NCBI RefSeq assembly: GCF_002836255.1
Contig: NZ_PJAU01000061.1
Location: forward strand, 1-64,000
Source of the DNA: Colwellia sp. 75C3
GTDB taxonomy: Bacteria; Pseudomonadota; Gammaproteobacteria; Enterobacterales; Alteromonadaceae
DNA length: 64,000 bases
Direction of reading: 5' to 3'
The position numbers and the translations under genes were made by a program. Under the pieces are notes generated by a model. It searched no databases, had not been told where the DNA came from, and worked only from the letters and a program-made list of their open reading frames with translations. How positions within the stretch are numbered: position 1 is the stretch's first letter; each line of letters begins with the position of its first letter. Of this stretch, positions 1-20,047 are shown one piece after another.

Positions 1-58
1 CCGCTTCGCTACACAATTTTAGCCAACCATTACTTAGCCTGTTATTTGGGCGTTATAT
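1..58 (+). repeat. attC site 1, 3' part only
   Basis: The right arm TTTAGCCAAC and the core GCGTTATAT (crossover G at 52) are present; the left half lies before the window. The array therefore continues upstream. Confidence 0.85.
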
Positions 59-276
59 GCTTTTTAAAACTTAGCTTTAAGAACGTTAAATAATTAGATT
101 TTTTCGCTAAAGTAGGTTTGTTTTTAACACTAATAAGCTTTTCCCTTGTTACCTTTTTCAAAGGTGGAAAAACTATTAATGTTGTTCAGCCAGTTGTGTG
201 TAGCAAAAATTCACTGCTTGGCGTATTTATAACAGGCGCAATAAAAGTATGTAACGGTTGGTTTAACCACCGTGGC
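59..276. other. ORF-less integron cassette A
   Basis: This is the body of a cassette bounded by core GTTATAT at 52-58 and its complementary box ATATAAC at 277-283; the complementarity extends to 9 bp. I see no open frame with a start and ribosome binding site on either strand. It does not clearly resemble the other non-coding cassettes in the window. Confidence 0.6.
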
Positions 277-374
277 ATATAACAAGGCATTCAAAAGGAC
301 TAAAAAAAGTTGGCTGCCGTTCGTGCCTCACTATTTTAGCCAACCATTTTTAGCCTCTTAATGGGGCGTTAGTT
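277..374 (+). repeat. attC site 2
   Basis: Complete site: inverse core ATATAAC at 277, arms AGTTGGCTG and TAGCCAAC, core GTTAGTT at 368. It is nearly identical to attC 14 at 6180 although the attached cassettes are unrelated. Confidence 0.93.
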
Positions 375-390
375 GCCAATGGAGATCAAT

Positions 391-909
391 TTGAGCAATA
401 GAATTATTGAGGTTGTTGACTACGATCCAAATTGGAGTAAAACTTTTGAAACTGAAAAAGTAATGCTAACCAAAGCTATTGGAAGCAATGCTGTAAAAAT
501 CGAACATATTGGTAGTACATCTGTTGTTGGTTTATCGGCAAAACCTGTTATTGATATTTTAATTGAGGTTACAAGCCTTACAGAACTGGATTCAGCAAAT
601 AAAAACATTGTAGGTCTTGGTTACATTGTTAAAGGTGAAAATGGCATTTCAGGTAGACGCTACTTTCAAAAAGGTGGTAATCAACGTAGTCATCATGTTC
701 ATGCTTTTCAAACCAGTGATTTACACTTACTTCGGCATAGAGCATTTAAAGAGTACCTAATTGCACATCCAATTATTGCGTCAGAGTATAGCTTTATTAA
801 AAAAGAGGCTGTTTCCAAAAGCGGTAATGATATTAATTTTTATATGGCACTAAAAAATAACTTTATTCAAAAACATGAAATACTAGCTATCGAGTGGTTT
901 GGCAACTAA
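391..909 (+). CDS. GrpB family protein (cassette gene)
   Basis: The protein is a GrpB/UPF0157 family member, about 172 residues, close to the family length. It has the family's WSKTF segment near the start, the HIGSTSVVGLSAKPVIDI core and the HHVHAF stretch in the middle. The fold is nucleotidyltransferase-like; the biological role is not established. TTG at 391 is chosen because GGAG lies six bases upstream and the protein then begins SNRIIEVVDYDPNW, as in the family; ATG at 379 is the alternative. The stop TAA lies inside the inverse core box of the following attC, which marks it as a typical cassette gene. Confidence 0.85.
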   Translation: MSNRIIEVVDYDPNWSKTFETEKVMLTKAIGSNAVKIEHIGSTSVVGLSAKPVIDILIEVTSLTELDSANKNIVGLGYIVKGENGISGRRYFQKGGNQRSHHVHAFQTSDLHLLRHRAFKEYLIAHPIIASEYSFIKKEAVSKSGNDINFYMALKNNFIQKHEILAIEWFGN

Positions 910-1004
910 CAAGCCATTCAAGCAGGACTTTTAACAGTTGGCTAGGTCCCGCTTCGCTTCACATTTTAGCCAACAATTAAAAGCCTCTTAATGGGGCGTT
1001 ATGC
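904..1004 (+). repeat. attC site 3
   Basis: Inverse core AACTAAC at 904 complements the cassette's own first bases GTTAGTT (368). Arms CAGTTGGCT and TTTAGCCAAC, core GTTATGC at 998. Confidence 0.93.
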
Positions 1005-1020
1005 GTATCAAAAGGTTCAT

Positions 1021-1521
1021 ATGGAGTTTGTAAAACTGTCTCGGTATCATGCTAACCTGCTTTTAGATTTTGAACTAAAAAACAAGCAGTGGTTTGATTC
1101 ACTAATTGAACCAAGAGACAAATCGTTCTACTCACAACAAGGTATAACTGATCATATTGACTCTTTAATTAAACAAATGGAGAACGGTGCTGGGTATAGC
1201 GGCGTATTAGTACAAAATAACACTATAGTTGCCCGAGCAAACCTTAAAGATATTTCAAAAAATGAAGCATTTGTCGGCTATAGAGTAGCTGAAGACTTTA
1301 CGTCAAAGGGTGCTGCAAGTTATTGTTTGTCGCAACTGGTGAGTATTGCACAAAGTAAACTTAATATTACCATGCTGAAAGCTAGGGTTCTGGAAAATAA
1401 TCCTGCATCAATGCATATATTAAAAAAGTTTGGCTTCCAGGCAACTGGCACAATAACAAACTTTATAACTTTAAATGGTAATAAATTAAGTTGCACAGAC
1501 TTGAGTGTTAAATACGCATAA
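1021..1521 (+). CDS. GNAT family N-acetyltransferase (cassette gene)
   Basis: Predicted acetyl-CoA-dependent N-acetyltransferase of the RimJ/RimL-like GNAT group, about 166 residues. The central GYRVAEDFTSKGAAS region corresponds to the acetyl-CoA loop (motif A), followed by LKARVLENNPASMHILKKFGF, the usual C-terminal GNAT signature. Substrate unknown. ATG 1021 follows an AAAGG ribosome binding site. The gene fills its cassette and stops at the next attC (1516). It is one of several GNATs in the window and is not close to the others. Confidence 0.85.
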   Translation: MEFVKLSRYHANLLLDFELKNKQWFDSLIEPRDKSFYSQQGITDHIDSLIKQMENGAGYSGVLVQNNTIVARANLKDISKNEAFVGYRVAEDFTSKGAASYCLSQLVSIAQSKLNITMLKARVLENNPASMHILKKFGFQATGTITNFITLNGNKLSCTDLSVKYA

Positions 1522-1615
1522 CAAGCTGTTTAATCAGGACAAAATACAGTTGGCTGTGTTTCGTACCTCAACATTTTAGCCAACAATATTTTGCCCATTA
1601 ACGAGGGCGTTATAT
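1516..1615 (+). repeat. attC site 4
   Basis: GCATAAC at 1516, arms CAGTTGGCT and TTTAGCCAAC, core GTTATAT at 1609. The box complements the cassette start at 998. Confidence 0.93.
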
Positions 1616-1629
1616 GCAAAGAGAATCAA

Positions 1630-1830
1630 GTGGCATATTCTGAATACGATGTTGTAAAGGTAATAGCTTTAAATCCAAATGTTCCTGAAGCAGAAATAGG
1701 AGATACAGGTACAATCCTTATGCTTTTGGAACATGAGAATAATAGGGCATACGAAGTTGAATGTGTATTGCCAGATGCTACAAATAAATGGCTAGGCACT
1801 TTTGAACCAAGCCAATTACAACTTGTGTAA
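1630..1830 (+). CDS. DUF4926 domain protein (cassette gene)
   Basis: Small soluble protein of about 66 residues with the DUF4926 layout: YDVVKVI at the N-terminus, a GDTGTILML turn, AYEVEC and a final WLGTFEPSQLQLV. The fold is SH3-like in related families; function unknown. GTG at 1630 is chosen because it places the conserved domain at the very start. It is followed 15 bp later by attC 5. Confidence 0.75.
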   Translation: MAYSEYDVVKVIALNPNVPEAEIGDTGTILMLLEHENNRAYEVECVLPDATNKWLGTFEPSQLQLV

Positions 1831-1844
1831 GTATCTGATATTGC

Positions 1845-1946
1845 ATATAACAAGGGTTTTCAAGTCGGACAAATTACAGTTGGCTTTTTGTTCGTGCCTC
1901 ACTTATTTTAGCCAACTGCAATTTGCCGCTTAAAACGGCGTTAGCT
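1845..1946 (+). repeat. attC site 5
   Basis: Box ATATAAC at 1845, core GTTAGCT at 1940. From the AACAAGGG segment to the GGCGTTA core it reads the same as attC 17 (8390), with a different cassette gene. Confidence 0.93.
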
Positions 1947-2044
1947 TTTACTCAAGGAGAGAGTCTATCAAATACGCTGAAGAATATTCAAAGCCTGAAA
2001 AGATTAGAATAAAAGCATTACTAATTTTAGCTAGTGCTTTAGTT

Positions 2045-2428
2045 GTGATTGTAGGTATAAAATGGTTTTTCCCATTTTTAGAATGGTATGTAGATACTGT
2101 TCATTGTCATACTCCTTTTGGTTATTCTGGAATATCTGTACTCTGGAACTCTATGCTTGTATGTTTACCTTTATTTGGTGCTATTTCTATCGGTATGTTC
2201 ACATTGCCACTTGGTATAAAGGGCTTTATGCATGGACAATTTCCGCCTAAAGGCATAAAGGTACTTCAGCCTACTAAAATCATTGTAGGGTGGCGAGCGA
2301 ATATTAAATCATTCATCCATATATTTGTTCCTGTATTTCTTATACTATTTTCTATCTGGGGCTACTTTCAAGTAGATGAAATGCCTAAAAAAATGGAAGG
2401 TTTTGACTATAGCGTATGTAAAAGCTAA
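2045..2428 (+). CDS. Membrane protein, start uncertain (cassette gene)
   Basis: No recognised family. There are hydrophobic segments near the start, in the middle (WNSMLVCLPLFGAISIGMF) and near the end (FIHIFVPVFLILFSIWGYF). The frame stays open upstream: a strong AAGGAG at 1954-1959 is followed after a normal spacing by ATC AAA TAC GCT GAA (1967), which reads as an N-terminus lacking only an ATG and would restore a first membrane helix (ALLILASALVVIV). GTG 2045 is the first canonical start but has no ribosome binding site. Either the start codon has mutated or initiation is at ATC. The stop lies in the attC box. Confidence 0.6.
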   Translation: MIVGIKWFFPFLEWYVDTVHCHTPFGYSGISVLWNSMLVCLPLFGAISIGMFTLPLGIKGFMHGQFPPKGIKVLQPTKIIVGWRANIKSFIHIFVPVFLILFSIWGYFQVDEMPKKMEGFDYSVCKS

Positions 2429-2522
2429 CAAGAAAATCAACAAGGACAAAAAACAGTTGGCTTTTGCTCCTTCGTCGCTAATTTTAGCCAACAATTTTTT
2501 GCCTGTTATTTAGGCGTTAGGT
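2423..2522 (+). repeat. attC site 6
   Basis: AGCTAAC at 2423, arms CAGTTGGCT and TTTAGCCAAC, core GTTAGGT at 2516. Confidence 0.93.
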
Positions 2523-2541
2523 TTAAATGGAGAATTAACAA

Positions 2542-2754
2542 ATGGATGTTGCTTTAAATAGTTTTGGTATATTCGGTGTTTTATTTTATTTCATACTGGT
2601 GATTCTATGGATCATGGTTCCAGTTTTCATCTTCTTAATTTCAAAACGAGTAAAACAAATGCTCAATGTTATTGAGTCCTCTCAATCCGAAATTAAGGAG
2701 TTAAATGCAAGTATTAAGTATTTAAAACGCAAATATAATGAATCAAATGAGTAA
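2542..2754 (+). CDS. Small membrane protein with coiled coil (cassette gene)
   Basis: A 70-residue protein with one or two membrane segments (residues about 8-38, rich in I, L, F, V) followed by a charged helical tail predicted to form a coiled coil (residues about 40-68). A GGAG site precedes ATG 2542. Family not recognised. Likely an inner-membrane anchored protein. The gene is followed at once by attC 7. Confidence 0.65.
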   Translation: MDVALNSFGIFGVLFYFILVILWIMVPVFIFLISKRVKQMLNVIESSQSEIKELNASIKYLKRKYNESNE

Positions 2755-2758
2755 TTAA

Positions 2759-2858
2759 ACCTAACAAGGCATTAAAGCAGGAAAATTTACAGTTGGCTTT
2801 TTTCACTGCGTTCAACAGTTTAGCCAACTATAAATTTCCTCTTAATGAGGCGTTAGAG
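2759..2858 (+). repeat. attC site 7
   Basis: ACCTAAC at 2759, core GTTAGAG at 2852. Almost the same sequence as attC 18 (9017). Confidence 0.93.
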
Positions 2859-2874
2859 CTATAAGGAGTTAGCA

Positions 2875-3333
2875 ATGAGGAAAGTAGTTACATTATCAAT
2901 TTTTAGCGTTTTTTTGGTGGCATGTGTTTCGAATGACACAGCCGAAATGGCAGTTGAAGAACCAATACAATATATAGATTTGACCTTAGATGATAAGAAG
3001 GACTTGATTAAGGAGTATTGGGTAGTAGAAAAAAGACAAGAGCCTAAATACCCAATTAGCGCAGCTAGAAAAGGTTTATCGGGTTGTGTAGATCTAATTG
3101 TAGGTATTAAGACTAATGGAAAGTCTGGTGGGTATAAAGTCAAAAAGTCATACCCTGAAGGTGTATTTGATAAATATGCAGCGGCTGCATTAAATAATTG
3201 GAAATGGGAAGCAACGGATAAAAACGTTGATAGAAAACCTGTTTTAACAACCATACAATTAGACTTCATGGTCAGTGGGTCTAAAAATAAAAAAGAAGCT
3301 GAAAGTCAGTGTGGGTTGTCCCACAATTTATAG
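2875..3333 (+). CDS. Lipoprotein with TonB C-terminal-like domain (cassette gene)
   Basis: A 152-residue predicted lipoprotein: signal peptide with lipobox LVAC (Cys at residue 17), then a TonB_C-like domain at about residues 60-130. The domain shows the family pattern EPKYPISAARKGLSGCVDL, a glycine-containing turn, and the FDKYAAAALNNWKW helix. Unlike true TonB it has no proline-rich spacer and no N-terminal membrane helix able to contact ExbB/ExbD, so it is not expected to energise receptors by itself. AAGGAG precedes ATG 2875. Confidence 0.75.
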   Translation: MRKVVTLSIFSVFLVACVSNDTAEMAVEEPIQYIDLTLDDKKDLIKEYWVVEKRQEPKYPISAARKGLSGCVDLIVGIKTNGKSGGYKVKKSYPEGVFDKYAAAALNNWKWEATDKNVDRKPVLTTIQLDFMVSGSKNKKEAESQCGLSHNL

Positions 3334-3425
3334 CTCTAACAAGTTGCTTAAACGGAAAAATAACAGTTGGCCATCGCTTCGCGATTATAGCCAACCATTA
3401 TTTTCCGCTTAGCAAAGCGTTAGAG
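3334..3425 (+). repeat. attC site 8
   Basis: CTCTAAC at 3334, arms CAGTTGGCC and TAGCCAAC with a short loop, core GTTAGAG at 3419. Confidence 0.92.
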
Positions 3426-3441
3426 TTACTAGGGAATTATC

Positions 3442-3978
3442 GTGATCGTCGAAAGCTCATATTGGAAATTACCACTTATTGAGAGTGCTAAAAAATTTGA
3501 AGAATTAGAAGAGCTTTGTGAATTATCAGAACGCCACTTTGTTCAAATAGAACAGGATATTTTTTTAGGCTTCTATACAATTAGAAAATTACTCGACGCA
3601 TCAAAAATTACAGATAAACTAAAGAATAAGAAGATAGTATTAAAGTCACATCCAAACAAAGATAAATACGTTACATTGCTTAATAACCATAAACTAGATG
3701 AAAAATATGATTTCAGTGTCTTAAATTCTGAACAACGAGATTTATGGTTTATCGCTAGTCGCCTTATTCATAGTTATATTTTTCAAATATCTATAAACGA
3801 TATGGGTATTTTTGATGGTGTTTTATTTACTTCTGACACAGATAAAACTAAAAAACTTTATTGGCTAACCTCACAAGAAATTATCAGCATATTTCAAGAA
3901 GTAGGTAGCAATGAGGTAACAAAGTTTGAGTGGAGTATTGATCCAGAAAGTGGTCAAGAAACGATGGTGGCATCGTAA
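3442..3978 (+). CDS. Hypothetical protein (cassette gene)
   Basis: A 178-residue soluble protein of no family I recognise. It is mainly helical in composition, with an acidic N-terminal region (FEELEELCELSERHF) and a hydrophobic centre (LWFIASRLIHSYIF). No signal peptide or membrane helix. GTG 3442 follows a GGGA element. The gene ends where attC 8's partner box begins (3979). Confidence 0.65.
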   Translation: MIVESSYWKLPLIESAKKFEELEELCELSERHFVQIEQDIFLGFYTIRKLLDASKITDKLKNKKIVLKSHPNKDKYVTLLNNHKLDEKYDFSVLNSEQRDLWFIASRLIHSYIFQISINDMGIFDGVLFTSDTDKTKKLYWLTSQEIISIFQEVGSNEVTKFEWSIDPESGQETMVAS

Positions 3979-4076
3979 CTCTAACAAGGCGTTCAAACGG
4001 ACAAAAAACAGTTGGCTGTTTCACTCCGTTCACAATTTTAGCCAACAATTTTTTGCCGCTTAACGTGGCGTTATGT
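3979..4076 (+). repeat. attC site 9
   Basis: CTCTAAC at 3979, arms CAGTTGGCTG and TTTAGCCAAC, core GTTATGT at 4070. Confidence 0.93.
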
Positions 4077-4088
4077 GTTTTTCAAATT

Positions 4089-4487
4089 ATGAGTAAATTT
4101 AAAGTTTTATTAATCCCCGTAGCTACTTTACTAGGTGCGCTATTAGGTTATTTTCTAGCACCGCCACAACCACTTTATCCTTTTGCAGGTGAAAAGCATG
4201 AACTTGAACTCATTCGCTATATTGAGCTTCATATAATCATTTATTTAGGTTTCTTTTCAGCATGCTTTACATCCTTATCTTCTAAGCTCCTCAATACTTC
4301 CATAAGTTTAGCCATCGGTTCATTAATTTCAGTTGGTTTATTTATTGGCGCAATAGATGATTTAAGGAGCGGAGCTATCCCTTCTTACAGTTTTCGAGAA
4401 ATAGTTGTATATGTTGTTGGTTGTATTTCTTGGTATGGTATAGTTTATTTATTCAGTAGCTTTTTCAATAAAAACAAAGTGGTATAA
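4089..4487 (+). CDS. Four-helix membrane protein (cassette gene)
   Basis: About 132 residues with four probable membrane segments: VLLIPVATLLGALLGYFL near the start, IIIYLGFFSACFTSL, ISLAIGSLISVGLFIGAI, and VVYVVGCISWYGIVYLF. Family not recognised. ATG 4089 is preferred because upstream codons lie inside the attC core; no strong ribosome binding site is visible. A short spacer separates the stop from attC 10. Confidence 0.65.
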   Translation: MSKFKVLLIPVATLLGALLGYFLAPPQPLYPFAGEKHELELIRYIELHIIIYLGFFSACFTSLSSKLLNTSISLAIGSLISVGLFIGAIDDLRSGAIPSYSFREIVVYVVGCISWYGIVYLFSSFFNKNKVV

Positions 4488-4489
4488 AC

Positions 4490-4588
4490 ACATAACAAGT
4501 TACTCAAACGGACGCTAAACAGTTGGCTAGCGCTCGTTCCTCGCACATTTTAGCCAACAATTTCGCGCCGCTTAGTAAGGCGTTAGGT
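4490..4588 (+). repeat. attC site 10
   Basis: ACATAAC at 4490, arms CAGTTGGCTAG and TTTAGCCAAC, core GTTAGGT at 4582. Confidence 0.93.
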
Positions 4589-4596
4589 GTATACGG

Positions 4597-4947
4597 ATGT
4601 CACTCTGTTTGGTTGTTTCAAAGCTAGCTACAGAATTAGAAACACAGCTTGATGGCTGTACTAGTAGCCAACAGTCAATGCTGAAAGTTATGGTAGATAT
4701 GCCGAAATATTTAGCTAAAAATGACTTAGCTTTATGGGAAGCTGATTATCGCTCGTCGATTAGCGAAGATGAAGACGAAAAGAGTCTTGAGTACAAGGCG
4801 ATAGATATATTATACGAGCTCGCAGGTTTAAATTTATTTGGCAAGTTTCAAGTGAGTGTATCTAAGCAAGTGTATTCAAGCGTCGTCGCCAATTTAGAGC
4901 GTTTGGGTATTCAGGTTACAAGTGATTTGGACGTTTCTAGGTGGTAA
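4597..4947 (+). CDS. Hypothetical protein (cassette gene)
   Basis: A 116-residue soluble, acidic protein without a recognised domain. The sequence is helical in character with an acidic middle (ISEDEDEKSLEYKAIDILYELAGL). No signal or membrane segment. The start lies only a few bases past the attC core, with no clear ribosome binding site, so a later start is possible. Confidence 0.6.
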   Translation: MSLCLVVSKLATELETQLDGCTSSQQSMLKVMVDMPKYLAKNDLALWEADYRSSISEDEDEKSLEYKAIDILYELAGLNLFGKFQVSVSKQVYSSVVANLERLGIQVTSDLDVSRW

Positions 4948-4951
4948 ATAC

Positions 4952-5054
4952 ACCTAACAAGAAATTAAACAAGGACAAAAAACAGTTGGCTTTTTGTTCA
5001 CTCCGTTCACCTATTTTAGCCAACTACTTTTTGCCTGTTAATTAGGCGTTAGTT
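4952..5054 (+). repeat. attC site 11
   Basis: ACCTAAC at 4952, arms CAGTTGGCT and TTTAGCCAAC, core GTTAGTT at 5048. Confidence 0.93.
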
Positions 5055-5335
5055 GCACGCACTAAATCAGTATTATTAATTTGCTAGTTTAGTGTTTAAC
5101 ACGTAGTTTCGTGTCTGGTTCAATCTTTGGTTTGGCAATGGAAGTGCCTTCAAATACTCACTTCTTCTTTGCCCAACCCAGTTTTCGCCTCACAATGTTT
5201 TAAGATCAAGAAGCTTTAGTTTTTAAGGCTCAAAATCAAGTTTAGGTGTGTAGTGCGGGGATGTGTTTTTTGTATCTTCCGTCTATCCCGTAAACATGGT
5301 AACTTATTGTAAAGTTAGTGCTTTTAACAAGCAGC
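5055..5335. other. ORF-less integron cassette B (conserved non-coding family)
   Basis: A 280-bp cassette body with no convincing gene. Conserved blocks are shared with the cassette at 19503-19716 (around TTTGCTAGTT, ATCTTTG.TTTGGCAATG, and a terminal AAACATGGTAACTTATTG) and with the cassette at 5849-6179 (around CAGTTTTCGCC, GGCTCAAAAT, GTG.GGGGAT, ATCCCGTAA). GGGGAT at 5257 can pair with ATCCC at 5285 across a T-rich loop. The conservation suggests a functional RNA or regulatory element rather than decayed coding DNA. Confidence 0.6.
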
Positions 5336-5437
5336 AACTAACAAGGCAATCAAGCGGGACACGCAACAGTTGGCTACGTTTCGCTTCGCTACACATTTTA
5401 GCCAACTATTACTTAGCCCCTTATTGGGGCGTTAGGC
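5336..5437 (+). repeat. attC site 12
   Basis: AACTAAC at 5336, arms CAGTTGGCTACG and TTTAGCCAAC, core GTTAGGC at 5431. Resembles attC 33, which ends the related ORF-less cassette. Confidence 0.93.
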
Positions 5438-5488
5438 TTCCTAAAACTCCGTTAGCCTCGCGTATATCAATATTGGAGTTACTTATAA

Positions 5489-5749
5489 GTGGATTTACCT
5501 GTGAAAGAAGTGTTTTTTTTCGATTCAATGCTAACCCCTAAAATTATCACATTCGTGTATTGGCTAATGCTTCTGGGAGCTTTATTTTCAGCTTTGGCCG
5601 TAAGGTACACACAAGGTGAAGATGGGAATCTAACTGGTTGTGCAATTATTGTTTTTGGGGCCATTGGTTCAAGAATTTGGTGTGAGTTACTAATTGTTTT
5701 ATTTAAAATTAATGAGAATTTACAAAAAATTGCTAATAAATCTGAATAA
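5489..5749 (+). CDS. DUF4282-like membrane protein (cassette gene)
   Basis: An 86-residue protein matching the DUF4282 plan: FFFDSMLTPKIITFVYWL leads into a first membrane helix, a short loop, a second helix (CAIIVFGAIGSRIWCELLIVLF) and a charged tail FKINENLQKIANKSE. The R-I-x-CELLIV-x-FKINENL end is the most recognisable part. Function unknown; inner membrane. GTG 5489 has GGAG about ten bases upstream. Confidence 0.7.
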   Translation: MDLPVKEVFFFDSMLTPKIITFVYWLMLLGALFSALAVRYTQGEDGNLTGCAIIVFGAIGSRIWCELLIVLFKINENLQKIANKSE

Positions 5750-5848
5750 GCCTAACAAGCAAATCAACTAGGACTTAAAACAGTTTGTTGTTTTTCGTCC
5801 CTCAAAATTTTAACAAACAATTTTAAGCCTGTTATTTGGGCGTTATAT
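5750..5848 (+). repeat. attC site 13 (variant arms)
   Basis: GCCTAAC at 5750, core GTTATAT at 5842. Both arms have changed together: AGTTTGTTG on the left and TAACAAAC on the right, so pairing is kept. Confidence 0.9.
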
Positions 5849-6179
5849 TTCCCCACGAATTCAAACGCGTATATTTATTACCGTTTGTATTTATTAAATG
5901 GGTAAGGCGCTTGTTTCGGTTCGTTGTTGTGGTAAGTTATTCGGCGTAAATTCTGTTTCAGCTTTTGGTTAATCAGTTTTCGCCAACGAATTTTTTTAGT
6001 TATCGCTCAGTAAAGTTTAGCGGTAATAATAAGTTTCAAAGCATTCGCTACATTTAGTTTGGCGAGTGGCTCAAAATTCAAGGTTTGGCGTGTCGTGGGG
6101 ATATTTTTTAATCCTACTCATTCCATCCCGTAACCGTTTGTATGTTTGGTTTCGTTTAGTGTTTGCCATGTAGGTCAAA
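5849..6179. other. ORF-less integron cassette C (conserved non-coding family)
   Basis: A 330-bp cassette body with no supported ORF. It shares with cassette B the segment around GGCTCAAAAT, TGTCGTGGGGAT, a T-run and ATCCCGTAAC. GGGGAT at 6097 can pair with ATCCC at 6125 as in cassette B. Confidence 0.55.
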
Positions 6180-6278
6180 ATCTAACAAGCCAATCAAGCA
6201 GGACTAAAAAAAGTTGGCTGCCGTTCGTGCCTCACTATTTTAGCCAACCATTTTTAGCCTCTTATTGGGGCGTTATAT
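6180..6278 (+). repeat. attC site 14
   Basis: ATCTAAC at 6180 (one mismatch to the cassette's own core GTTATAT), arms AGTTGGCTG and TTTAGCCAAC, core GTTATAT at 6272. Near copy of attC 2. Confidence 0.92.
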
Positions 6279-6293
6279 ACCTAAGGATAGGAT

Positions 6294-6746
6294 ATGGATT
6301 TCATCTCAATAACTCACGTTACTCTTGCTGTCACTGCCACTCTAAGTGGAGCTATAGTTTTAGCCCGCAGGAAAGGTGACGTGCTTCACACTAGGTTAGG
6401 AAAATTATTTATTGCGTGTATGGTGTTAGTAAATATTACTGCATTTGCTCTATGGCCTAAATATGGATTTACATTTTTTCAACCTTTAGCATTATGGAAT
6501 TTAGTTTGGGTGCTTTTGGGCTATTATTATGCAACCAAAAAACCAAACAAAAATTGGCTAATTAATCATTACTATTTCATGTCGTACGCTTATGTTGGTG
6601 TACTTGCTGCGGCACTTGCCAGAATTCCATTAAGCTTTGGCTTTCTACCAAATGAAGCAGCATTCATTTCCATTGCTGTTGTTTTTGGTATTTCAACTTA
6701 TTTAATAGAAAAGCAAGGTAAAAAGTTGAGAGTGATCGGTATATAA
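6294..6746 (+). CDS. DUF2306-like membrane protein (cassette gene)
   Basis: A 150-residue protein with four to five membrane helices. The N-terminal pattern, a helix ending SGAIVLARRKGDVLHTRLGKLF, is typical of DUF2306/predicted membrane proteins with a conserved KG...H.RLG loop. Later segments LWNLVWVLLGYYYA and YVGVLAAALARI are membrane spanning. Function unknown. GGATAGG precedes ATG 6294. Its last codons overlap the attC 15 box. Confidence 0.7.
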   Translation: MDFISITHVTLAVTATLSGAIVLARRKGDVLHTRLGKLFIACMVLVNITAFALWPKYGFTFFQPLALWNLVWVLLGYYYATKKPNKNWLINHYYFMSYAYVGVLAAALARIPLSFGFLPNEAAFISIAVVFGISTYLIEKQGKKLRVIGI

Positions 6747-6841
6747 CAAGCTGTTAAACAAGGACAAAAAACAGTTGGTTTTTGCTCCTTCGTCGCTTAT
6801 TTTAACCAACTATTTTATTGCCTGTTAACAGGGCGTTAGAT
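6741..6841 (+). repeat. attC site 15 (variant arms)
   Basis: ATATAAC at 6741, arms CAGTTGGTT and TTTAACCAAC (compensating change), core GTTAGAT at 6835. Confidence 0.92.
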
Positions 6842-6870
6842 GCATACGATGTTCAAGTTTGGAGTTTCTG

Positions 6871-7899
6871 TTGGAAGTTAGAAAATTAAACGCCTTACGT
6901 GGACTAGCAGCATTTATTGTTTTTATTACACATTTTAGCGATATAACAAATTGGCTTGATGGTATGTTAGGTGGAGGCTCTGGAGCATACGGTGTAATGC
7001 TGTTCTTCTTATTAAGCGGCTTTTTAATGTCTTACCTTTATCTATCTCAAGAATTCAATAAAATTAATGTCAAACGTTACCTACTAGCGAGAGCTGCAAG
7101 AGTAGCTCCATTGTTCTTCGTTGTTGTACTCAGCTCATACATATTATCTTTAGCTGGCAATGACACTCTCTACAGCATTCCTGATGTCAATACACTAATA
7201 GGTCATCTATTATTTTTATATGGTGAAAGTGTACTTTGGTCAATTCCACCAGAAATACAGTTTTACTTCGTATTTATTATATTTTGGTCTTTCTCAAAGA
7301 GCAGGCCTGGTTATATTTATTTTTCAATCATAGCTGTAATGATCTTACTGTTTTTTATGAACTTCCCCCGAATAAATGGTGACTTAAGCGGAATTCCATA
7401 TAACTTATTTAATACACTACGAAGCCTACCTTACTTTTTTATTGGGGTTATTTTTGGGATGCATTTTAAGTCCATAAAGATACCAAGCTACCTTAGAAAG
7501 CACTGGTTTATTCTAGTATTACTTTTAATTCCTGCAATGTATCCAGAGCTTACGTCTATTACGTCTGACGCTAAGCATAGAATGTGGTTAAGCTATGAAG
7601 TATTACTTGTAATGAGTTCCGTATTCTTTTGCATTGTGTTCTTGGTTCCTGATAACAATGTACTATTAGCTAATAGGTTCGGTGACTTCTTAGGAAAAAT
7701 ATCTTATTCATTATATTTGCTACACATGCCAATTATTATTTTTGTAAACAAGCTCAATTTAAGCGTTGAATTGAAATTAATATTATCTTTTGGTTTAACT
7801 GTTTCAATAGCATTTGTATCATTTAAATATTTTGAAAAGCCTGTTGCTAGCTTCATACGTAACATAGCATCTAACAAGAATTTCAAGCGGGACTGCTAA
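6871..7899 (+). CDS. Acyltransferase family 3 protein (cassette gene)
   Basis: An integral membrane O-acyltransferase of family 3 (OafA/NodX type), about 342 residues. The signature LNALRGLAAFIVFITHFSD begins the protein, with the catalytic-type His in ITHF. RYLLARAARVAPLFFVVVL follows, then about ten membrane helices and the C-terminal ISYSLYLLHMPIIIF motif. It probably acylates a surface sugar or lipid. TTG 6871 is chosen because GGAG lies six bases upstream. The frame runs about 30 bases into attC 16, so the last residues are attC-encoded. Among the largest cassette genes here. Confidence 0.85.
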   Translation: MEVRKLNALRGLAAFIVFITHFSDITNWLDGMLGGGSGAYGVMLFFLLSGFLMSYLYLSQEFNKINVKRYLLARAARVAPLFFVVVLSSYILSLAGNDTLYSIPDVNTLIGHLLFLYGESVLWSIPPEIQFYFVFIIFWSFSKSRPGYIYFSIIAVMILLFFMNFPRINGDLSGIPYNLFNTLRSLPYFFIGVIFGMHFKSIKIPSYLRKHWFILVLLLIPAMYPELTSITSDAKHRMWLSYEVLLVMSSVFFCIVFLVPDNNVLLANRFGDFLGKISYSLYLLHMPIIIFVNKLNLSVELKLILSFGLTVSIAFVSFKYFEKPVASFIRNIASNKNFKRDC

Positions 7900-7970
7900 C
7901 AGTTTGCTCGGTTTCGCTTCGCTACACAATTTAAGCAAACAATTATCAGCCCCTTAAATGGGCGTTAGGT
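7869..7970 (+). repeat. attC site 16 (variant arms)
   Basis: ATCTAAC at 7869, arms CAGTTTGCT and TTAAGCAAAC (both arms changed together), core GTTAGGT at 7964. Confidence 0.92.
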
Positions 7971-8028
7971 TTTAAAAAAGTGTGGTGGTAGGCGAAGCAA
8001 AAAAGAAATTAAATACAAGGATGGAAAT

Positions 8029-8376
8029 ATGACGGATTCTTCTGAAGTTCTGGTAATCGCCGAAAAATATCTGAAAGAAATGCTGGAAGCAGATGACACG
8101 GAAAACTTCGACTTGTATACGAAGCGATACGAAGAAAAGTACCTTGTTAACTTTTCGAGAGAGAGGTTTTCAGATGACATCAAGGGTATGCATGAAAGGA
8201 ACGGCATGAATACGGGCTACGAGTTTCTATGTACGTTAAGAAATTTTAGTTTCGATGGTTTAGATATTTTCAGGCTCGTTTGGAAAGGTATTTATGAAAA
8301 GCGGGATGCTGTGATCGAGTTTGACGTATATAAAAAAAATGGAAACTGGTACGTTATTCAGTCGGCAGTTCATTAA
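8029..8376 (+). CDS. NTF2-like small protein (cassette gene)
   Basis: A 115-residue cytosolic protein. The layout of an N-terminal helix (VIAEKYLKEMLEADDTENFDLYTKRYEEKYL), a middle strand region and a closing YKKNGNWYVIQSAVH strand is what NTF2-like/SnoaL-type proteins show; the exact family is not certain. AAGGATGG precedes ATG 8029. Codon use looks more GC-rich than its neighbours in the first third, hinting at a different origin. Confidence 0.65.
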   Translation: MTDSSEVLVIAEKYLKEMLEADDTENFDLYTKRYEEKYLVNFSRERFSDDIKGMHERNGMNTGYEFLCTLRNFSFDGLDIFRLVWKGIYEKRDAVIEFDVYKKNGNWYVIQSAVH

Positions 8377-8389
8377 AGTGCGGGATAAA

Positions 8390-8491
8390 ACCTAACAAGG
8401 GTTTTCAAGTCGGACAAATTACAGTTGGCTTTTTGTTCGTGCCTCACTTATTTTAGCCAACTGCAATTTGCCGCTTAAAACGGCGTTATAT
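8390..8491 (+). repeat. attC site 17
   Basis: ACCTAAC at 8390, core GTTATAT at 8485. Body identical to attC 5. Confidence 0.93.
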
Positions 8492-8503
8492 CTCTAGGAG
8501 TTT

Positions 8504-9010
8504 GTGTTGACTATTGTTGAAACTGAGAGGTTAAGTATTCGTCAAATTACGAATGAGGATGCTATAAACCTATCAAAAGTGTTAGCTGATCCTATAGTAA
8601 TGGAATATTCGACAGTAGGTGTTCATACAGAAGAACAGATTTATGATTATATAGCTAATTGCAAAAATCAATATGACTTAAATGGTTATGGGCATTGGGC
8701 AATTTATAACTCTATAACTAGTGAGTTTGTTGGTGTGTGTGGTCTTAATAAGCATAAAGTGGACACTGATGATGTTATACATATCAATTATCGTCTTGCC
8801 ACTGACCAACAAGGTAAAGGTTATGCTGTTGAGTCTGCATTTGGTGTATTACATTTTGCTAAAAATTCCTTAAAGCTTAAATCGGTACACGCGCTAATAG
8901 AATCGGATAATGTTAGCTCTGTTAAAGTCGTAAACAGAACAGGCTTTCAATTCATTAAATCTTCTGTATTTCGTGGTTTTAAAGTCGACATCTATCAAGT
9001 GGCTCTATAA
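8504..9010 (+). CDS. GNAT family N-acetyltransferase (cassette gene)
   Basis: A RimJ/RimL-type GNAT acetyltransferase of 168 residues: ETERLSIRQITNEDA at the N-terminus, a GHWAIYNSITSEFVGVCGL strand pair, the acetyl-CoA loop YRLATDQQGKGYAVES, and VHALIESDNVSSVKVVNRTGFQ. Substrate unknown. AGGAG at 8496 serves either GTG 8504 or TTG 8507. The stop is 6 bp before attC 18. Confidence 0.87.
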   Translation: MLTIVETERLSIRQITNEDAINLSKVLADPIVMEYSTVGVHTEEQIYDYIANCKNQYDLNGYGHWAIYNSITSEFVGVCGLNKHKVDTDDVIHINYRLATDQQGKGYAVESAFGVLHFAKNSLKLKSVHALIESDNVSSVKVVNRTGFQFIKSSVFRGFKVDIYQVAL

Positions 9011-18771: not shown

Positions 18772-19101
18772 CTATTTTGAAATTTTCTCTTCCCAATCTG
18801 CAGCCCAATCTCTCAAAGGGTTAAGTGTGTTCATTAAGGACAATCCTAATGTTGTTAGTTTATAGCCTTCTGATGTTGTAAAAACTAATTCAGCTTCAGT
18901 CAGTTGCTTAATTCTAGTGTTTAAAACAGAAGGAGACATACCGTCACATCGTTCTTGTAACCCTCTAAAACTTAGAGGGTCTGAGTTAAGTTCCCACATG
19001 ATTCTCATGTTCCACTTTCGGCCTAACAAATCGAATACAGCCATGATTGCTACACCCGAACTGGATCCTCTTACTAATTTTTTCGGTAATGGTGTTGTCA
19101 T
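18772..19101 (-). CDS. HxlR family transcriptional regulator (reverse-strand cassette gene)
   Basis: A 109-residue winged-helix regulator of the HxlR family. LLGRKWNMRIMWELNSDPLSFRGLQERCDGMSPSVLNTRIKQLTEAELV is the DNA-binding domain; DWAADWEEKI closes the protein as in the family. It is divergent from a YciI-family gene 90 bp away, and the intergenic region holds two identical-pattern palindromes, so it most likely controls both genes. HxlR proteins often sense electrophiles or quinones through Cys; one Cys (in ERCDGM) is present. Confidence 0.87.
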   Translation of the reverse strand: MTTPLPKKLVRGSSSGVAIMAVFDLLGRKWNMRIMWELNSDPLSFRGLQERCDGMSPSVLNTRIKQLTEAELVFTTSEGYKLTTLGLSLMNTLNPLRDWAADWEEKISK

Positions 19102-19109
19102 AAGTATTG

Positions 19110-19155
19110 CGCTACTAAAAGAGTAGCGGCATAGTCCGCTACGAAATAAGTAGCG
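19110..19155. promoter_or_regulatory. Twin palindromic operators between hxlR-like and yciI-like genes
   Basis: Two 19-bp palindromes of the form CGCTAC-N7-GTAGCG occupy 19110-19128 and 19137-19155. Centres are 27 bp apart. They sit between the divergent starts (19101 minus, 19191 plus), where a dimeric HxlR regulator would be expected to bind. Confidence 0.8.
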
Positions 19156-19190
19156 ATATTATATTAATCTATTTAAAAAGCGAGAATTAT

Positions 19191-19478
19191 ATGTATTTAG
19201 TAGATATGAGTTTTACTGACATGGCAAAAATTACACCAGAACTAACTGATAAGCATAAGAGTTATCTTGAACAAGAATATAAATCAAACAAGCTGATGTT
19301 TGGTGGAAGAAAAGTACCTAGAACTGGGGGGATACTTATCTCACAGCATGCAAGTGAGCGAGAGCTTAAACAAGTTTTAAACTCAGACCCATTCGTTAAA
19401 AGTGGAGCTGTATGTTATTCAATCACTGAATTTATTCCTGTAATGGCTTCTAAAGCTTATGAGGATGTCATAGCCTAA
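19191..19478 (+). CDS. YciI-like protein (cassette gene)
   Basis: A 95-residue protein of the YciI/DUF1330-like ferredoxin-fold group: MYLVDMSFTDMAKITPELTDKHKSYLEQEYKSNKLMFGGRKVPRTGGILI, then DPFVKSGAVCYSITEFIPVMA. YciI-like proteins act as small enzymes or binding proteins in degradation pathways and are often next to an HxlR or other regulator. Here the divergent HxlR gene and shared operators support a regulated detoxification pair. Confidence 0.82.
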   Translation: MYLVDMSFTDMAKITPELTDKHKSYLEQEYKSNKLMFGGRKVPRTGGILISQHASERELKQVLNSDPFVKSGAVCYSITEFIPVMASKAYEDVIA

Positions 19479-19502
19479 TAAGTTGCTAACAGGTCGTTAG
19501 TT
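19474..19502 (+). repeat. attC 32 remnant
   Basis: Only the ends are left: CCTAATAAGTTGC directly joined to AACAGGTCGTTAGTT. The whole stem-loop has been deleted. Confidence 0.6.
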
Positions 19503-19716
19503 GTTCGCACTGAATTTACTAAATTTATTTGCTAGTTCAGTGTGTATCTTAACCCTTTGTATTAGATTTAATCTTTGATTTGGCAATGCCATCAAATATT
19601 CAGTTCTTTTATTCTTACCTCAATTTCAGTATGTATTTAGGAGATGCTTTGTGAATCTTTCGTTTATCACATAAACATGGTAACTTATTGCTTCTGTTGT
19701 TCTTTTAAGTCAACGT
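19503..19716. other. ORF-less integron cassette D (conserved non-coding family)
   Basis: No supported ORF. Blocks around TTTGCTAGTT, ATCTTTGATTTGGCAATG and AAACATGGTAACTTATTG match cassette B (5055-5335) in the same order. The attC that follows is also related to the one after cassette B, so whole cassettes are homologous. Confidence 0.6.
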
Positions 19717-19816
19717 AACTAACAAGGCAATCAAAGGAACACGCAACAGTTGGTGGCGTTTCGCTTAGCTCCACATTTTAGCCAACAATTATTTTCCTCT
19801 GAATGAGGCGTTATAT
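19717..19816 (+). repeat. attC site 33
   Basis: AACTAAC at 19717, arms CAGTTGGTGG and TTTAGCCAAC, core GTTATAT at 19810. Confidence 0.9.
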
Positions 19817-19831
19817 GCAAAAGGAAATCGC

Positions 19832-20047
19832 ATGAAATATCTAGCCGTTACATTTATACTTGTCCTACTTTCAGGTTGTTCTTCTCTCGTAGGAGCCATT
19901 GCAGAAACAGCGTTTGAAAAAGCTACTGATACCGAAATTAGCTATGTTGGCGCAAGTTGTCCTGATGTTAGGCGTAATTGTTCTAGCGGTAATTATCAAG
20001 AGTGGTATCAAAGTAATGGAAAACTAGCTTGTGCTTGTAATAACTAA
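19832..20047 (+). CDS. Small lipoprotein (cassette gene)
   Basis: A 71-residue predicted lipoprotein, lipobox LSGC (Cys 16), with a short mature part rich in Cys (ASCPDVRRNCSSG, LACACNN). It probably sits in the outer or inner membrane with disulphides. Family not recognised. AAGGAAATCGC precedes ATG 19832. Confidence 0.7.
   Translation: MKYLAVTFILVLLSGCSSLVGAIAETAFEKATDTEISYVGASCPDVRRNCSSGNYQEWYQSNGKLACACNN

Follow-up and report, generated by a model that had tools for sequence, protein, structure and literature searches.

Gene-less integron cassettes of a large Colwellia-centred family carry a conserved nucleic-acid fold

The ORF-less cassettes B and C of Colwellia sp. 75C3 belong, as intact members, to a large, Colwellia-centred family of integron cassettes without ORFs, and the conserved fold of this family is well supported as real. 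Computation shows that compensatory changes preserve its long-range helix, P1, even between members that have diverged strongly; that the bottom strand is the one that folds is fairly supported. Gene-less cassettes of this kind may work as structures and not by coding for protein. In Vibrio integrons, ORF-less cassettes occur in paralogous families, the non-coding share of cassettes ranges from 6% to 49% across arrays, and selfish-element, promoter, and RNA hypotheses have already been raised for them in the available part of that report (Boucher et al., 2006; PMC1382264). A literature search with slight coverage of subscription journals returned no report of the Colwellia family or of a conserved cassette-body fold, and neither is reported in the available portions of PMC1382264, PMC11014356, PMC2727003, and PMC11551772. 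A demonstrable conserved fold turns the question of the purpose of non-coding cassettes into one of precise tests.

The window, that is, the whole stretch of DNA analysed (64,000 nucleotides), covers positions 1-64000 of contig C55 in a genome of 5.4 Mb. According to a loose pattern list, attC-like sites with array-typical ends extend from the window start to about 22.5 kb, and positions 1-9000 and 19100-19900 were inspected by eye. An integron integrase is matched above the cut-off of TIGR02249 on contig C21, with further pieces on C21 and C6; the only match on the window's contig is a sub-cut-off one of 21 bits at 118545, and no integrase therefore lies beside this stretch of the array. The two integrase loci (C21:6539-7481 and C6:32434-33091) are each in two pieces, and one piece contains internal stops. 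The features of the window, all on the + strand, are as follows.

56..279, +, diverged member of the related group 2, at the contig start (C55:94-214 matched)
5052..5338, +, body of cassette B, intact family member, 287 nt, between the attC end at 5051 and TAACAAG at 5339
5052..5056, +, B, P0 5' strand GTTGC, pairing with GCAAC at 5334-5338 and extending attC R'/R''
5058..5064, +, B, P1 5' arm CGCACTA
5181..5189, +, B, core motif, half 1, GTTTTCGCC
5227..5234, +, B, core motif, half 2, GGCTCAAA
5251..5257, +, B, P1 3' arm TAGTGCG
5846..6182, +, body of cassette C, intact long-form member, 337 nt, flanked by attC sites
5850..5858, +, C, P1 5' arm TCCCCACGA, complementary at 9/9 positions to 6093-6101
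5976..5984, +, C, core motif, half 1, GTTTTCGCC
5985..6067, +, C, long spacer, 83 nt, against 35-41 nt in the short form
6068..6075, +, C, core motif, half 2, GGCTCAAA
6093..6101, +, C, P1 3' arm TCGTGGGGA
19499..19716, +, cassette D, decayed remnant with a B-related 5' block and 3' tail, no core, and no P1 3' arm

As the original prediction had it, B and C are gene-less, the longest ORF within the bodies between the attC sites being 31 aa in B and 35 aa in C. Its claim of shared ordered blocks is also borne out: B and D match at 85% over B 210-255 and at 71% over B 21-112 (counted from 5055), and B and C both carry the ordered blocks of the family. C matches only itself in its own genome by BLAST, so that the kinship of B and C runs through the family and not through a direct hit. 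D had been placed on a par with these two cassettes, but it contains neither core half and lacks the P1 3' arm, so that only B and C are intact and D is what remains of a decayed cassette. The GGGGAT...ATCCC pair that had been pointed out is real in B and C, but as a conserved unit it is found in only 2/116 non-redundant members, B and C themselves, and a conserved GGGGAT/ATCCC hairpin is ruled out on this count; in C, the GGGGA half doubles as the 3' arm of P1 (5850-5858 with 6093-6101). Above-threshold core matches in the genome number four, namely B, C, C9:4842, and C55:364292.

A search with nhmmer yielded 160 distinct full bodies delimited by GTTA and [ACGT]AACA ends with complementary end bases, after 50 further hits with unacceptable ends, many of them truncated at the edge of a contig or locus, had been left out. 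The bodies measure 279-300 nt in 116 cases (285-292 nt in 90), at most 242 nt in 22, 253-267 nt in 12, and at least 332 nt in 10. Redundancy reduction left 119 bodies, and the removal of three degenerate or mis-bounded ones (L003_p_1356, which is D, L193_m_1084, and L029_p_2078) left the 116 members on which most counts below are based. At E ≤ 0.001, 16 of the 39 genus genomes contain matches to B and 15 of them matches to C, the own genome included in both counts, with up to 14 matches of B per genome. A covariance model of the core, built from 28 sequences with 3 base pairs, found the motif in 32/295 genomes of the taxonomic family (8/52 genera) and in 7/394 genomes of the order (5/114 genera); both genome sets were sampled from larger groups, and stricter filters lose weak matches. 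A pattern scan of named genomes gave 42 hits, of which 34 are members (Colwellia 29, Shewanella 2, and one each in Litorilituus, Thalassotalea, and a gammaproteobacterial MAG) and 8 were judged to be chance; 13 of the 42 were read by eye with 260 bases on either side where available, the other 29 being Colwellia records. The 8 hits suggesting spread to distant phyla (L066, L069, L075, L077, L080, L086, L087, and L097) have neither attC flanks nor family context and were set aside as chance. No match to the family was found in the plasmids and viral contigs scanned. One genome (G039; family f1, genus g2) has 12 matches and a subfamily of its own, with bodies of 235-240 and 290 nt and a 5' end that is mostly ACTGTCACCACTA.

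The cassette downstream was readable for 115 of the 160 bodies (45 unreadable) and contained a sense ORF of at least 60 aa in 88 cases, another family member in 17, and something else in 10. Direct succession of family cassettes, one attC length apart, was seen for three in L025 and two in L013. At L034:119-441 and L084:299-584, the sequence in front of the member is not an attC site and ends in GTGTCTA or ATGTCTA, as would be expected of a first cassette at attI.

The ends of the cassette body form two helices. P0, for which B has the complementary ends listed above, is the known attC R'/R'' extension, and R'/R'' complementarity of 9-11 nt is described in the available part of PMC2727003. In most members, P1 is formed by the opening bases of the cassette (about nt 5-13) and a stretch that lies about 80-90 nt upstream of the cassette end. 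Its start adjoins the recombination point in R', and its arms enclose most of the body, with 186 nt between them in B and 234 in C. The arms differ widely in sequence, for example, CGCACTA/TAGTGCG in B, TCCCCACGA/TCGTGGGGA in C, and GCACCACTA/TAGTGGTGC, CGCAATAT/ATATTGCG, and GCAGTACGA/TCGTACTGC elsewhere; some members have just 4-6 continuous P1 pairs. Among the 119 non-redundant bodies, 83% reach a P1 score of at least 7, compared with 39% when the partners are swapped between bodies and 23% after shuffling, and the mean pairing score is 9.75 vs 6.78 (swapped) and 6.02 (shuffled). In some subfamilies the P1 5' arm is predicted to pair instead with a segment near nt 45; no such pair is among the listed covarying columns, and this alternative is not claimed.

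The consensus fold computed with RNAalifold for 75 members reaches −18.1 on the top strand and −17.7 on the bottom strand. In 30 column shuffles per strand, the mean was −1.2 for the top strand (sd 1.4, minimum −4.5) and −0.4 for the bottom strand (sd 0.9, minimum −4.1). Individual members also fold better than shuffles, with z-scores of −2.12 (top) and −2.32 (bottom) for the 116 members compared with −0.60 and −0.49 for 59 control segments of the window. Covariation was assessed with a home-made G-test with average-product correction against a null of 40 alignments simulated on the tree. The best 7 column pairs, which all exceed the highest null value of 89.4, belong to P0 (2-288, 1-289, 3-287) and P1 (8-207, 5-210, 9-206, 10-205). 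The P1 pairs 12-203, 7-208, and 13-202 follow at E 0.025-0.075, a range that also holds 8-83, 83-207, 77-84, and the P0 neighbours 1-288 and 2-289 outside P0 and P1, and these E-values are optimistic since the null alignments are less variable than the real one (11.7 vs 14.3 changes per column, counted at every fifth column). Reconstructed on the tree, the changes in P1 comprise 37 events from one Watson-Crick pair to another, 35 that end in G·T or A·C, and 37 that end in a mismatch of another kind. The presence of homologues of B and C in other genomes and of covariation among them leaves the reading as a structural element unrefuted, and the covariation is strong, although it lies in another helix than the hairpin that had been proposed.

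Within P1 lies the near-invariant core GTTTTCGCC...GGCTCAAA. The two motifs TTTTCGCC and GGCTCAAA are both exact in 103/116 members, and each of their 16 positions is 97-100% conserved in the 111/116 members with both halves locatable at no more than 3 mismatches each; the G preceding TTTT is 79% conserved. Among the 103 exact members, 74 have a spacer of 35-41 nt between the halves, 28 have one of 83-101 nt, and a single member has one of 14 nt. A long hairpin is predicted within the spacer in some long-spacer clusters; this hairpin, P5, occupies the long spacer of other long-form clusters and is not claimed for C itself. The pairing of the core halves as a helix of the top strand, P2 (GTTTTcGCC/GGCtcAAAA), shows no compensatory changes of its own and is ruled out as a covarying helix. 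Some compensatory change is seen only at the first pair inside, which is TA in 37 and AT in 34 (n = 104), with 4 double events vs 9 breaks. Read on the bottom strand, the core is TTTGAGCC...GGCGAAAA, which would combine a GCC/GGC stem with TTT/AAA and a tandem 5'-GA/3'-AG step. A Py-GA-Pu setting of this kind is one in which tandem sheared G·A pairs form, and such a step on the bottom strand would explain why TC/TC on the top strand is as invariant as the paired bases.

The first cassette of the window (56-279) led to a related ORF-less group, group 2, which has matches in 16/39 genomes of the genus, with 21 in one of them. Its bodies measure 224-230 nt in 16/19 cases and contain a long central hairpin and versions of the same core. 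Fully paired core versions such as TTTTACGCTA/TAGCGTAAAA occur beside TTTTTCGCTA/TAGCTCAAAA, and by comparison of these single examples they support P2 as a putative helix. Of the 110 unique group-2 stretches, the 84 that cover at least 150 model positions and are non-redundant were used; the HMMs of the two groups cross-match and the set of 84 thus holds some long-form group-1 members, so that the groups are not independent, while the helices counted in them differ.

Which strand folds was addressed through the wobble pairs, given that A·C on the top strand is G·T on the bottom strand, and in the scoring of P1 both were treated alike. In 67 distinct P1 helices the ratio of G·T to A·C is 10:20 (p 0.10), and as tree events there are 11 G·T and 24 A·C (p 0.041). 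A sense-RNA control, 6S RNA (26/30 fetched loci; L273, L284, L294, and L297 were skipped for odd length), gave 249:105, and a control for single-stranded DNA, 348 distinct attC stems, gave 66:660, or 66:258 without the four commonest positions. P1 differs from 6S (Fisher p 7e-5; tree events 8e-6), its difference from the reduced attC count is not significant (p 0.11), and A·C is its better-tolerated deviation, as in attC stems. The gap cost used in aligning the P1 arms was higher than that used for the two controls. Taken alone, the strand signal of P1 is modest (p 0.04-0.10) and compatible with strand symmetry too. Helices predicted inside subfamilies have 59 G·T and 48 A·C, with no strand preference.

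In group 2, all wobble events amount to 34 A·C (19 into, 15 out of the wobble) and 10 G·T (9 into, 1 out; p 0.0004), and the into-events alone to 19 A·C and 9 G·T (p 0.09). The group-2 consensus, at −25.6 without G·U, improves to −29.8 on the bottom strand once G·U pairs are allowed and to only −26.0 on the top strand. In the 8-pair part of the group-2 hairpin, 50 pattern-matched unique stretches show A·C in 39, G·T in none, full pairing in 10, and another mismatch in 1. Together, the wobble counts of P1 and group 2 make a sense-strand RNA unlikely and favour the bottom strand, the one that integrons recombine. The regulatory RNA put forward earlier is accordingly disfavoured in the sense direction.

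A hidden ORF finds no support in a comparison with shuffled sequences: the mean longest ORF in the 116 members is 44.4 aa vs 43.1 aa in shuffles, so no ORFs beyond chance were found, and the longest ORF lies above all 20 shuffles in 6/116 members. With homologues present and no ORF signal, the claim of conservation without coding potential stands. No tRNA-like element was found within the window.

On this evidence, B and C are tentatively regarded as mobile ORF-less cassettes with a nucleic-acid fold as cargo, which as bottom-strand single-stranded DNA would aid mobility or establishment. We infer that the fold acts as single-stranded DNA. Replication, DNA uptake, conjugation, or excision of the cassette would expose the bottom strand, which would then fold against the neighbouring attC stem, with P0 and P1 contiguous on one side. 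Such a fold could help cassette recombination or conversion to the double strand, and since it would do so, the cassette might spread as a hitch-hiker. That the folded bottom-strand DNA is the only cargo, put to use while the cassette or array is single-stranded, is doubtful. It might then assist recombination next to attC, for example, or be a single-strand promoter or a priming hairpin. In the latter variant, excision or arrival in a new cell would be followed by synthesis of the complementary strand and by sense transcription, both started from the fold. Cassettes of that sort would form a class of mobile elements that carry a DNA shape instead of a gene. Exactness of both core halves in so many members exceeds the need of a purely structural recombination aid, and a recognised RNA or protein site therefore fits better. 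If the strand assignment is true, the folding of single-stranded integron DNA extends beyond the attC hairpin to the cassette cargo.

An alternative but unlikely reading of the same fold is an independent non-coding RNA whose template direction is opposite to that of the array, so that it corresponds to the bottom strand, with P1 pairing its two ends and with a conserved core. The P1 ratio of 10:20 is approximately the mirror image of the 6S ratio, and an invariant core combined with variable helices and optional hairpins is typical of structured RNAs. Against such an RNA, the best sigma-70 scores on the bottom strand are not enriched (7.18 vs 7.37 in shuffles), an A5 run within 25 nt before the cassette, the T-run of a bottom-transcript terminator, occurs in just 2/116 members, and no Rfam match was found in the whole window at the gathering score or in the region of B and C (4950-6300) at E up to 1.

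It is improbable that the cassettes are primarily promoter cassettes, with the fold secondary, in the manner described for Vibrio by Blanco et al. (2024), where most of the gene-less cassettes assayed had sense promoter activity according to the available text (PMC11014356). Members do precede coding cassettes, as the 88 sense ORFs downstream show. The promoter suggested earlier nevertheless finds no backing in sigma-70 scans of either strand, where the best scores are no better than in shuffles (6.47 vs 6.89 on the top strand, together with the bottom-strand values above) and where a scan of 4940-6290 found 3 sites with 3.0 expected by chance. Scans of this type cannot exclude a promoter, and because promoters of such cassettes are not identifiable in silico, as stated in the available part of PMC11014356, the missing sigma-70 signal is weak evidence. 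The covariation of P1 is left unexplained by a promoter.

A sense RNA element within read-through transcripts of the array, serving as leader, antitermination, or processing element for downstream cassettes, is quite improbable. It would suit the 88/115 members that are followed by a cassette with a sense ORF, the T5 run just 3' of P1 on the top strand in 57/116 members, and the top strand, which too folds better than shuffles (z −2.1). Against this, the wobble pairs of P1 are unlike those of the sense RNA control, with group 2 in agreement, and the 17/115 members directly followed by another member would be odd for a leader. That the family consists of double-stranded inverted repeats bound by a protein dimer, or of relics of decayed genes, with no single-strand fold, is hardly credible: the deviations of P1 from strand symmetry are not significant as distinct helices, and D shows that members decay, but the P1 arms vary with compensation, unlike a fixed protein site, ORF lengths equal those of shuffles, and a reading frame common to the members is disrupted by spacers that range from 35 to 41 nt.

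Among known systems, attC sites are similar in strand behaviour, being bottom-strand single-stranded DNA hairpins with the same direction of wobble asymmetry, and P0 is their R'/R'' extension, whereas P1 and the core of the Colwellia cassettes sit in the cassette body, outside the attC boxes. Structured bacterial RNAs in Rfam share a covarying closing helix, an invariant core, and optional hairpins, but the Colwellia family has no Rfam match and its wobble pairs are not of the sense-strand type. Frpo is a single-stranded DNA fold that acts in newly entered DNA. The resemblance of the Colwellia fold to single-stranded DNA promoters of conjugative plasmids (PMC11541004), which is an analogy only, would lie in a fold of single-stranded DNA at work in newly entered DNA. 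The Vibrionaceae promoter cassettes are likewise gene-less and located in large chromosomal integrons, but they are single cassettes studied in promoter assays, and no common family or fold is described for them in the available part of the report (Blanco et al., 2024; PMC11014356).

The Vibrio non-coding families resemble the Colwellia family in being ORF-less, in having many paralogues per array, in cross-species conservation, and in the lack of coding homologues, but the available text contains no structure, covariation, or strand analysis of them (PMC1382264). The family HMM (nhmmer, E ≤ 1) matches 0/37 ORF-less cassettes of the order, an indirect test on six genomes of two genera (g72 and g85). 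Five of the six comparison genomes belong to g72, which by its attC type is probably Vibrio. No Vibrio appeared in the core pattern scan of named genomes. Of 8 aligned Vibrio-like cassettes considered for the same P1, 3 show GTAGAGAAAA/TTTTTTCTAC at a distance of 97 nt from the end; these arms are of low complexity and missing in the remaining 5, and a shared P1 is therefore not claimed. The g72 cassettes L253-L257 and L262 represent another ORF-less family, with no sequence match to the Colwellia family, which is about 376-390 nt long, occurs in several similar copies per array, and has the ends TGTAAC/GTTACA or GGCGAT/ATCGCC.
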